A stretch of 64,000 bases of DNA from a bacterium (lineage in GTDB: Bacteria; AUK180): contig JAGLGN010000032.1 in NCBI GenBank assembly GCA_023144005.1, positions 1-64,000 on the forward strand, written 5' to 3'. Position numbers and translations under genes: made by a program. The notes beneath the pieces are model-generated. The model saw nothing but the letters and a program-made list of their open reading frames with translations, did no database searches and was not told the origin of the DNA. Positions 51,996 through 54,724 of this stretch are shown here, in pieces. Each line of letters starts with the position of its first letter. The stretch's first letter is position 1.

Positions 51996-52071
<76 letters not shown>

Positions 52072-52080
52072 ATCCCATTT

Positions 52081-52596
52081 TTAGTATTCTATTATAGTGA
52101 ATATCTCCAGATTGTCAAGTTTTTTCCGGGCTTCCAGGAATTTTAATTCCACTAAGAACAAAGCCCCGACCACACTTGCACCATTTTTTTCGATCATTTT
52201 CTTCACAGCACCTACGGTTCCGCCTGTAGCAAGAAGATCGTCTATGATCAAGAATCGATCACCTTTATTTATGGCATCTTTGTGCATCTCCAATGTGTCT
52301 TCCCCGTATTCAAGGGAATAACTCTCAGAAATGGTCTCAGCGGGGAGCTTCCCTTTCTTTCTCACGGGAATAAAGGGTTTGTCCAAAAGATACGACAGTG
52401 CGCCGCCAAAGATAAATCCCCTGGATTCGATCGAAGCCAATTTATCATACTCAACATTTGCCAGAACATCTTTCATGGCATCAATTGCCTTTTTAAAACC
52501 CGCAGGATCCTTCAGCAGAGTAGTGATATCTTTGAATACTATACCCTTTTTCGGGAAATCCGGAACATCTCTGATCAAAGATGATAATTCTTCCAT
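52081..52596 (-). CDS. apt: Adenine phosphoribosyltransferase, internal start within the sigma-Apt frame
   Basis: Apt (171 aa) salvages adenine to AMP with PRPP. ATG at 52596 is preceded by AAGGAGAGGCAT, a strong ribosome-binding site, and the protein would begin exactly where other Apt proteins do. This is listed separately because free Apt may be the main product. Dimer formation and the PRPP loop appear intact. Confidence 0.75.
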   Translation of the reverse strand: MEELSSLIRDVPDFPKKGIVFKDITTLLKDPAGFKKAIDAMKDVLANVEYDKLASIESRGFIFGGALSYLLDKPFIPVRKKGKLPAETISESYSLEYGEDTLEMHKDAINKGDRFLIIDDLLATGGTVGAVKKMIEKNGASVVGALFLVELKFLEARKKLDNLEIFTIIEY

Positions 52597-53424
52597 ATGC
52601 CTCTCCTTTTCAATATTTAAATTGCTTTGTATTATTCCTACACCCTTATTGATGATCTGTCTAACCCTTTCTTTCGAAAGGCTCATAATGGTCCCAACCT
52701 CATCAAGAGTTCGAAAGGCATGGCCATCCAGCCCAAAACGCAATGAAATGGCCTGCTTAACTTTCGGTTTTAAGGATGAGATCATCTTCGACACATATTC
52801 ACTCTTATCCTTTCTGTCCTCTTCTTCGTAAAATGAGGCGCTGTCGCGGGAAAGCGTGAGATAATTAATGAAATCCTCGCTATCATTATCTATCTTGAAT
52901 GACATCGAATATTCATTTTGAACAATATTTAATTGATGCAGAAACTTCTCTTCTTCCATGTCAAATTGCTTTGCGATCTCTTTCGTTGTTGGTTTTCTCT
53001 CATGCTCGTGAAAGAACTCGTCGATATAATTCATAACTTTCACGCGAAAATCAAGAATATATATCGGGATCTTAACTATTCGCGCGTTCTTATCGATGAA
53101 ATTGATTATATACGCCTTGATCCAAAAATATGCGTATGTAGAAAATTTGAAATGCTTCTCAGGTTTAAAATGATCGATGGCTTTGAGCATGCCGGAAACT
53201 CCTTCAGAAAGGATATCCAATTTACTGATCCCCCGCAATCTGAAGTACTTCTTTGCGACCATTATTACAAGTCGTTGATTATGAAGGATGATTTTTTCTC
53301 TAAGAGCATGATCACCTGTCTTCTTGTACTCTACAAAATACTCATACTCTTCTTCGGAAGTGAACGGTTTGTAATCCTTCAATTCACGAAAATATATTTT
53401 TAAGAGCTTATCTTCAATATCCAT
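52081..53424 (-). CDS. Fusion of a sigma70-family factor (N-terminal) with adenine phosphoribosyltransferase (C-terminal)
   Basis: One continuous frame of 447 codons. Residues 1-276 are a group 2 sigma factor: region 2 around IILHNQRLVIMVAKKYF and FKFSTYAYFWIKAYIINFI, region 3, and region 4 with AISLRFGLDGHAFRTLDEVG and LSKERVRQIINKG. Residues 277-447 are a complete Apt: MEELSSLIRDVPDFPKKGI, SIESRGFIFG and the PRPP loop FLIIDDLLATGGT (391-403). No stop separates the parts. The codons before Met277 contain AAGGAG placed for initiation at ATG 52596, so free Apt can be made as well. An NlpD-like gene lies upstream, as in nlpD-rpoS. Confidence 0.85.
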   Translation of the reverse strand: MDIEDKLLKIYFRELKDYKPFTSEEEYEYFVEYKKTGDHALREKIILHNQRLVIMVAKKYFRLRGISKLDILSEGVSGMLKAIDHFKPEKHFKFSTYAYFWIKAYIINFIDKNARIVKIPIYILDFRVKVMNYIDEFFHEHERKPTTKEIAKQFDMEEEKFLHQLNIVQNEYSMSFKIDNDSEDFINYLTLSRDSASFYEEEDRKDKSEYVSKMISSLKPKVKQAISLRFGLDGHAFRTLDEVGTIMSLSKERVRQIINKGVGIIQSNLNIEKERHMEELSSLIRDVPDFPKKGIVFKDITTLLKDPAGFKKAIDAMKDVLANVEYDKLASIESRGFIFGGALSYLLDKPFIPVRKKGKLPAETISESYSLEYGEDTLEMHKDAINKGDRFLIIDDLLATGGTVGAVKKMIEKNGASVVGALFLVELKFLEARKKLDNLEIFTIIEY

Positions 53425-53430
53425 ATTTTC

Positions 53431-54171
53431 TCATGGTAAGAACAGTAGAGGGTTCAGCGGAAGCTTCTTTTTTCTCACTTCGAAGTGAAGGATCTCGCCG
53501 CTCACCTTAGCAACTACCTGTCCGGTAACGATCTTCTCACCCTTTTTCACTTTAACTTCCTCGCAGGGATAGTAGAAGACGTAATATTCGGCATCGACCT
53601 GAAATCCGACCATTAAGCCAATACCCTTAAGGAAGTCCAAATATGTTACCACCCCGTTATTTACGGCTATGATCTCCTTTGTCCGGGGTTTGATATCTAT
53701 TCCATTATTATTCGTGAAGATCCCTAATTCTTCATTGTATATCCTGCCGAATTTCCGGATCACGCTTTTTCTGTCAACATTATGTAAAGGCCATGACCTC
53801 AAGAAAGAGTCTCCCCCGTTGGAAAGCTTTGCGCCGGGCAAGGGCTTCTCGGCAGTTGAAAATGACCCGGCGCCTGGAATACGCAAGACCTGCCCCACTG
53901 ATATTTTCGTGGCATCTTCAATAGAATTGAACTCCGCGATATCCTCTATGGGCACCTTGAAATTCTTACTGATACGGTAGAGGGTCTCCCCTTTTCTCAC
54001 CTTGTGAACCGCATAGTTCTTGTCTGGAATCACAATCTTCTCAATTTCCTCTCTGGCTTCTTTTTTTGCCGCCAGAATTGTTGTCTTATTATTTTCAGTG
54101 ACCATTGATCTTCCGATCAGGGAACATGAAGAAAAGACAAGGGGAATAAATAGAAGCGCAGCTAAATTCAC
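53431..54171 (-). CDS. nlpD: NlpD-like lipoprotein: LysM plus degenerate M23 peptidase domain
   Basis: Protein of 246 aa. Lipobox PLVFSSCSLI (lipidated Cys16), a LysM domain VRKGETLYRISKNFKVPIED to VGQVLRIP, and a LytM/M23 domain whose zinc ligands are lost: NNGIDI instead of HxGxD and YYVFYYPC in place of HxH. E. coli NlpD is degenerate in the same places and ends the same way (LHFEVRKKKLPLNP here). It would activate cell-wall amidases in the periplasm. ATGA overlap with the LOG gene; 6 bp before the sigma gene. Confidence 0.85.
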   Translation of the reverse strand: MNLAALLFIPLVFSSCSLIGRSMVTENNKTTILAAKKEAREEIEKIVIPDKNYAVHKVRKGETLYRISKNFKVPIEDIAEFNSIEDATKISVGQVLRIPGAGSFSTAEKPLPGAKLSNGGDSFLRSWPLHNVDRKSVIRKFGRIYNEELGIFTNNNGIDIKPRTKEIIAVNNGVVTYLDFLKGIGLMVGFQVDAEYYVFYYPCEEVKVKKGEKIVTGQVVAKVSGEILHFEVRKKKLPLNPLLFLP

Positions 54172-54632
54172 TTTTTTCTGGAACTGAATATTTTTTCTGC
54201 CTCGGTGATCGCACCCTGAGCTTCATTGACTTTGATCACTTTGTCATCCACATCCCACGAGCTGATCGAGATCACAGGCTTATTGATCTTAAGAGCCATC
54301 GCGATCTCCGATAATGTTCCCAAACCCCCGCCGACGGCAATAACGATATCGGCAGTTCTAACGATGATCGCATTCCTCGCCTGCTGCATTGAAGTTAAGA
54401 TGGGAACTTGGATATGCGGATTCGCATCTTTCTTATCGGATCCGGGTAATATCCCAATCGTAAGGCCGTCCTTGCTTCTGGCACCTTTCGCTACACTTTC
54501 CATGACGCCGCCAAGGCCGCCGCACACGAGGATCCAGCCCTTCTCAGCGATCAAAGCACCTAAATCTTCGGCGATTTTCTCATATTCTTTTAGGGGAACG
54601 CTGTTTCCGACAACTCCGATTATCTTGCTCAT
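54168..54632 (-). CDS. LOG-like / TIGR00725 family protein (Rossmann-fold nucleotide-binding)
   Basis: Protein of 154 aa with GGLGGVMESVAKGA near residue 40 and GGGLGTLSEIAMAL near residue 105, the conserved motifs of the lysine-decarboxylase-like LOG family (phosphoribohydrolases of nucleoside monophosphates). Short length and MQQARNAIIVRTAD fit the TIGR00725 subgroup. Its role may be nucleotide salvage, matching the nearby Apt. It starts 17 nt after tRNA-Pro. Confidence 0.85.
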   Translation of the reverse strand: MSKIIGVVGNSVPLKEYEKIAEDLGALIAEKGWILVCGGLGGVMESVAKGARSKDGLTIGILPGSDKKDANPHIQVPILTSMQQARNAIIVRTADIVIAVGGGLGTLSEIAMALKINKPVISISSWDVDDKVIKVNEAQGAITEAEKIFSSRKK

Positions 54633-54648
54633 AGTTTTACTCCATAAA

Positions 54649-54724
54649 TGGTCGGGGTGACTGGATTCGAACCAGCGACCTCTCGGCCCCGAACCGAGCG
54701 CGCTACCAACTGCGCTACACCCCG
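54649..54724 (-). tRNA. tRNA-Pro (anticodon CGG)
   Basis: 76-nt cloverleaf on the minus strand. Acceptor CGGGGTG/CACCCCG, discriminator A and encoded CCA; D-arm GCGCAGTTGGTAGCGC; anticodon stem CTCGG/CCGAG with loop TTCGGGG; T-loop TTCGAAT. Anticodon CGG reads CCG. The first 10 nt overlap the end of the upstream CDS. Confidence 0.97.

Follow-up and report, generated by a model that had tools for sequence, protein, structure and literature searches.

An intact adenine phosphoribosyltransferase fused in frame to a sigma-70 family factor, restricted in the genomes sampled to a small family of uncultured bacteria

A stretch of bacterial DNA comprising 64,000 nucleotides (the window) was analyzed. 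On its minus strand it harbors a single open frame of 447 codons, which starts with the ATG at 53424, ends with the stop at 52081-52083, and contains zero internal stops; in it, sigma-70 regions 2, 3, and 4 are followed by an entire, motif-intact adenine phosphoribosyltransferase (Apt). The locus contains the following features:

52081..53424, minus strand: sigma-Apt fusion gene, 447 amino acids plus stop (ORF list, Pfam, and NCBIfam)
52609..53424, minus strand: sigma part, residues 1-272, with regions 2, 3, and 4 by Pfam
52603..52608, minus strand: AAGGAG Shine-Dalgarno-like motif, in frame, linker codons 273-274
52594..52596, minus strand: putative internal ATG for free Apt, codon 277, six bases past AAGGAG
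52084..52596, minus strand: full-length Apt domain; motifs ESRGFIFG, RKKGKLP, and DDLLATGGT intact
52579..52674, minus strand: residues 251-282, predicted by AlphaFold2 as one continuous helix from the recognition helix of region 4.2 through the linker into the first helix of Apt
53431..54171, minus strand: NlpD-like LysM/M23 protein, directly upstream of the fusion gene, a conserved operon member
54168..54632, minus strand: TIGR00725 family protein, leading the conserved block and sharing 4 bases with the NlpD-like gene
51996..52071, minus strand: tRNA-Arg (CCT), about 10 bases past the stop of the fusion gene
54649-54724, same strand as the fusion gene: tRNA-Pro (CGG), immediately ahead of the TIGR00725 gene

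The two tRNA genes thus flank the sigma-apt block on both sides and on the same strand.

All Pfam matches in the fusion exceed their cut-offs: Sigma70_r2 at residues 46-115 (51.2 bits, cut-off 24), Sigma70_r3 at 129-189 (35 bits, cut-off 25.3), Sigma70_r4 at 215-261 (37.5 bits, cut-off 24.1), and Pribosyltran at 301-426. The matches to regions 2 and 4 assign the N-terminal half to the sigma-70 family, and the presence of region 3 separates it from the ECF factors, which have regions 2 and 4 only. An earlier note on this DNA had proposed that no stop codon separates sigma factor and Apt and that AAGGAG lies in the linker codons. Both statements are borne out by the single 447-codon frame with its Pfam sigma and Apt domains and by the position of the motif at 52603-52608, six bases before the Apt ATG and inside the junction (52590-52620). 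The sigma complement of the source genome consists of RpoD, three Sigma70_r2 proteins in short (ECF-sized) frames, and the fusion.

Residues 280-447 match the NCBIfam model for apt, TIGR01090, with 214.6 bits at a cut-off of 185.85, and the copies from two other genera of the family (G003 and G004) also pass. Since the match extends over positions 1-169 of the 169 positions of the model, the Apt half is complete, as had been assumed. The PRPP-binding motif DD-LLATGGT and the flexible-loop motif RK-GKLP are invariant in all four fused proteins, as are all other catalytic motifs of Apt. The Apt half is 52% identical to 4lza_B over 172 residues, with an rmsd of 0.9 and a Z score of 28.3 for the model; the Apt part of the model deviates from APRT crystal structures by about 1-2 angstrom. 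With regard to family score and catalytic motifs the Apt half resembles that of PDB 4lza, from which it differs by the sigma factor attached to its N-terminus. A second close apt gene was not found in the fused genomes, where the remaining PRT matches are weak; therefore, Apt function must come from the fusion gene, be it as fused protein, as free protein, or as both.

The closest solved structure to the window's sigma half is E. coli RpoS (129 bits), followed by the best SigA (124 bits) and RpoD (118 bits). In proteobacteria the gene order nlpD-rpoS is found, and here, too, an NlpD-like gene lies upstream of the RpoS-like sigma. The window's sigma differs from RpoS-type factors in that it reaches 156.7 bits with the RpoS model TIGR02394 (NCBIfam), a model made for proteobacteria with a cut-off of 378.7, in its diverged region 2.4 and end of region 4.2, and in the C-terminal Apt. 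Unfused sigma factors of the sister family and of other phyla carry WWIRQ or WWIKQ in region 2.4 (WYIRQ in one phylum) and keep RERxRQIE..A..KL in region 4.2 with small variations. In the fused clade, including a genome truncated before the joint (G002), WIRQAI in region 2.4 is replaced by WIKAYI, WIDTTV, WIEAYI, or WIKSYI. The end of region 4.2, readable in three diverged lineages, reads KERxRQ followed by IINKG, LLKRG, or LINKG; RQIINKGVGII and similar sequences replace RQIExxAxxKL. The region 2.4 glutamine that reads the -12 base in E. coli sigma-70 (residue 437) is thus lost. Heat-shock sigma factors likewise lack the glutamine reading the -12 base. The fused factor had been regarded as a group 2 sigma factor, a group with regions 2.4 and 4.2 near the RpoD consensus; this assignment cannot be kept, as both regions depart from that consensus in exactly the fused clade. 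As judged from the aligned residues, the predicted promoter-reading surface is shown to be changed in this clade.

The sigma half nevertheless retains a core: in those fused genomes whose junction is readable, FSTYA with the tryptophan behind it and, in the recognition helix of region 4, the KER-RQ core do not vary. Between genera, identity amounts to 36-45% for the fused sigma as compared to 63-76% for RpoD and 66-72% for Apt; the faster divergence of the sigma half could reflect weaker constraint instead of specialization. In the truncated genome region 4 reads TREGIR, not (T/S)KER(V/I)R (loci L007 / L120), which may be an end-of-contig error.

The fusion was searched for in the source genome and 59 others. 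It is intact in a second genome of the same genus (G001, 99% identical) and in G003 and G004 (about 55% identical over the whole protein and only about 45% in the sigma half), and is hence kept in all four family genomes with an intact junction. For a fourth genus (G002) the sigma half alone is available, as the contig end falls inside the sigma gene just short of the joint. From the core of region 4.2 to the methionine of Apt, the fused proteins align without gaps, so linker length is invariant. The sequence AAGGAG-N6-ATG is identical in all four genomes, and the surrounding linker codons vary (AGG CAT, TTG ATA, TGG CTC). Ribosome-binding-site statistics were drawn from the window and the retrieved loci. 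Of the 404 internal ATGs that lie in frame in the larger ORFs of the window, only 2 are preceded by AAGGAG at a suitable distance, and in these genomes AAG and GAG each account for no more than about 30-50% of the codons for their respective amino acids. With motif and spacing conserved in four genomes, the idea that AAGGAG allows free Apt to be made from an internal start is plausible.

The source genome and G001 differ by 34 nucleotide changes in the fusion gene, of which three alter amino acids, all of them in sigma. The resulting values for the whole gene are dN 0.003 and dS 0.124, with dN/dS about 0.02; separately, dN/dS is about 0.05 for sigma and zero for Apt, where all 17 nucleotide changes are silent. 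Judged by these ratios, both halves are shown to be under purifying selection. An open linker over about 10 codons is, without selection for fusion, not very improbable by chance in one lineage; the case for a retained fusion therefore relies on its recurrence in three diverged genera with unchanged length and signal. This comparative evidence excludes both an assembly error and a recent accident as the source of the fusion, because the same open joint occurs in diverged genera with fixed length and AAGGAG and with low dN/dS. A recent loss of a stop codon, as considered in the earlier note, was rejected: the fusion is common to three genera whose sigma halves are too diverged (36-45% identical) for a recent event, and the joint has stayed open. 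A stop at the junction in relatives, named there as evidence against a fused protein, occurs in no genome of the family, but the sister family does have separate adjacent genes.

Two genomes of this sister family, which belongs to the same class, contain the same block of a TIGR00725-like gene, a LysM/M23 NlpD-like gene, sigma, and apt, the last two as separate genes. The gap between the sigma stop and the apt ATG measures 4 bases in one (G005) and about 6 bases in the other (G006), and the apt ribosome-binding site already lies inside the C-terminal codons of sigma. The internal ATG of the fused genomes coincides with the start site of free Apt in the sister family. Since the sister family has the same operon with the two genes separate, these gene orders are most simply explained by a single fusion event in the family, starting from an older operon pair of sigma and apt. 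The sister family thus provides a natural before/after comparison, in which the promoter-reading residues were rewritten together with the fusion. Sigma directly followed by a separate apt was also found in three of three sampled genomes in each of two other phyla (G030, G060, G061; G035, G062, G063), with gaps ranging from a few to about 360 bases; the adjacent pair is absent from most other genomes sampled. That two or more other phyla share the pair suggests that this sigma and purine salvage were functionally connected before the fusion arose. In two of these loci (L071 of G061, L083 of G062) the separate sigma and apt genes share a reading frame interrupted by just one stop, and one mutation could fuse them. 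A contig labelled Candidatus Methylomirabilis contains a looser version of the neighborhood (L035:4001-5978), with sigma 35% and Apt 57% identical to those of the window and about 650 bases apart.

Two AlphaFold models were calculated from different alignments. Both predict one helix at residues 251-282/283, in which the region 4.2 recognition helix runs into the first Apt helix. Across the joint, pLDDT is about 70-80 in the first model and lower in the second; overall pTM is 0.50 and 0.39, respectively. In the alignment behind the first model (A2), unfused sigma sequences were matched to the Apt part, which leaves the model's sigma half with little alignment support; the second model (alignment A4) has the opposite weakness. 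We regard the continuous helix, predicted with moderate confidence at best, as a lead, not as a result.

C-terminal regulatory domains are known from ECF41 and other sigma factors (PMC3426412, PMC8999054), and sensory parts of this kind are usually a C-terminal domain answering a small molecule or a partner (PMC3426412, PMC8999054, PMC9023288). Like ECF41 and its counterparts and like OrbS (PMC9023288), the window protein is a sigma factor bearing a part that could serve as its own sensory or regulatory domain. It departs from these ECF cases in three ways: an RpoS-like sigma half that includes region 3, an entire metabolic enzyme as the fused partner, and an internal start from which this enzyme is probably made by itself. 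A second comparison is offered by B. subtilis PurR, which appears in the VIA list of structure matches with a Z score of about 18. It combines a helix-turn-helix DNA-binding part with a following PRT-fold domain in one dimeric regulator, and PRPP and ppGpp compete in its PRT pocket (PMC8789054). However, PurR is a repressor with a catalytically dead PRT domain, whereas the window Apt keeps its catalytic motifs.

We lean towards a model in which one gene gives rise to sigma-Apt and, by internal initiation, to free Apt, and in which the Apt dimer acts as an on-board dimerizing, nucleotide-responsive domain. Two protein products, a dimeric sigma, and control by a ligand are inferred and would operate as follows. 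As the sigma frame stays open until Apt is complete, ribosomes that begin at the sigma start and translate the gene in full would always yield a 52-kDa sigma-Apt. AAGGAG-N6-ATG at the joint may let ribosomes start internally and produce an ordinary 19-kDa Apt. Apt enzymes are dimers, and a mixed pool of sigma-Apt:sigma-Apt, sigma-Apt:Apt, and Apt:Apt would therefore be expected. The most likely role of Apt would be to dimerize sigma and to alter its access to RNA polymerase or to the -35 element, depending on whether the pocket for PRPP/AMP (possibly (p)ppGpp) is occupied, a state relayed via the short helical joint. It is a tentative further step to propose that a catalytically active salvage enzyme serves as the sensory and dimerizing domain of an RpoS-like sigma, that binding of PRPP, adenine/AMP, or (p)ppGpp sets polymerase specificity, and that free Apt adjusts what fraction of the dimers carries sigma. 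With so large a dimeric enzyme attached to its region 4, the sigma factor could also be hampered in binding to RNA polymerase. If Apt controls sigma, nucleotide pools would be tied to a stress-type sigma within one polypeptide, bypassing ppGpp and anti-sigma proteins; nucleotide metabolism and transcription may thus be physically linked in one small family of uncultured bacteria.

The main rival to control by a ligand is a structural fusion with no regulatory coupling, for which the family ancestor lost the sigma stop, Apt was tolerated and active on sigma, and selection keeps two working activities and the translational coupling of apt to sigma. We rate it as possible, though less likely. A single mutation or small indel could fuse genes spaced as closely as those of the sister family, where the stop lies 4 (G005) or about 6 (G006) bases before the ATG; moreover, Apt resembles an unmodified enzyme without extra sensing features, and sigma diverges faster than RpoD. 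However, each fused genome has 15 linker codons, of which 6 to 9 could become a stop by one substitution, and no stop has come back in three genera, linker length is invariant, and the rewritten region 2.4 and 4.2 end are confined to the fused clade.

It is unlikely that the product is a precursor whose joint is cut by a protease or recoded by the ribosome, freeing sigma and Apt. Some sporulation sigma factors of bacteria are made as pro-proteins, and the linker sequence is variable; but the linker is short and predicted helical, and a conserved internal start would be needless if cleavage gave Apt. When the nucleotide sequences of the joint were compared across genomes, no conserved slippery sequence or other-frame stop was found, and release by frameshifting was rejected for this reason. 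Still less probable is a decaying sigma half that is no longer a sigma factor, with the gene kept for Apt. Fast divergence and the altered region 2.4 and 4.2 end would fit decay, as would the failure of Pfam to recognize region 1.2 in the fused protein, though it is recognized in three of four unfused counterparts tested. Decay is opposed by the low dN/dS of the sigma part, by the invariant residues of its core, and by zero frameshifts or stops in any copy. The named relatives are metagenome-assembled genomes of varying assembly quality, but an assembly or sequencing artefact at the junction was rejected as having a negligible chance, as four independent assemblies, two of them strongly diverged, agree on the same open joint.

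The fusion is known from four genome assemblies only. Considering the best few candidates per genome, it was found neither in the unrelated genomes of the 60-genome search, nor in four other phyla, sampled with 398, 195, 386, and 7 genomes, nor in the three-genome samples of the two phyla with adjacent sigma and apt. It is likewise absent from the 80 viral-contig loci listed, and a scan of named genomes returned the same-genus copy only. Altogether, about 1,060 genomes were sampled with the best few candidates each, and the fusion occurred in this family only, although rare cases elsewhere are possible. The open-licence literature yielded no description of a sigma-Apt protein or of an rpoS-apt operon, in agreement with the earlier note, which knew of no such protein. 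As far as these searches show, a sigma with a fused C-terminal domain is known, and an intact purine-salvage enzyme as its partner, with a probable nested second product, is new. One further locus (L104:1471-2838, G623) has an Apt domain at the C-terminus of a 456-codon stop-to-stop frame, preceded by about 280 codons with no Pfam match; it is possibly a mere open frame in G+C-rich DNA, or another Apt fusion.
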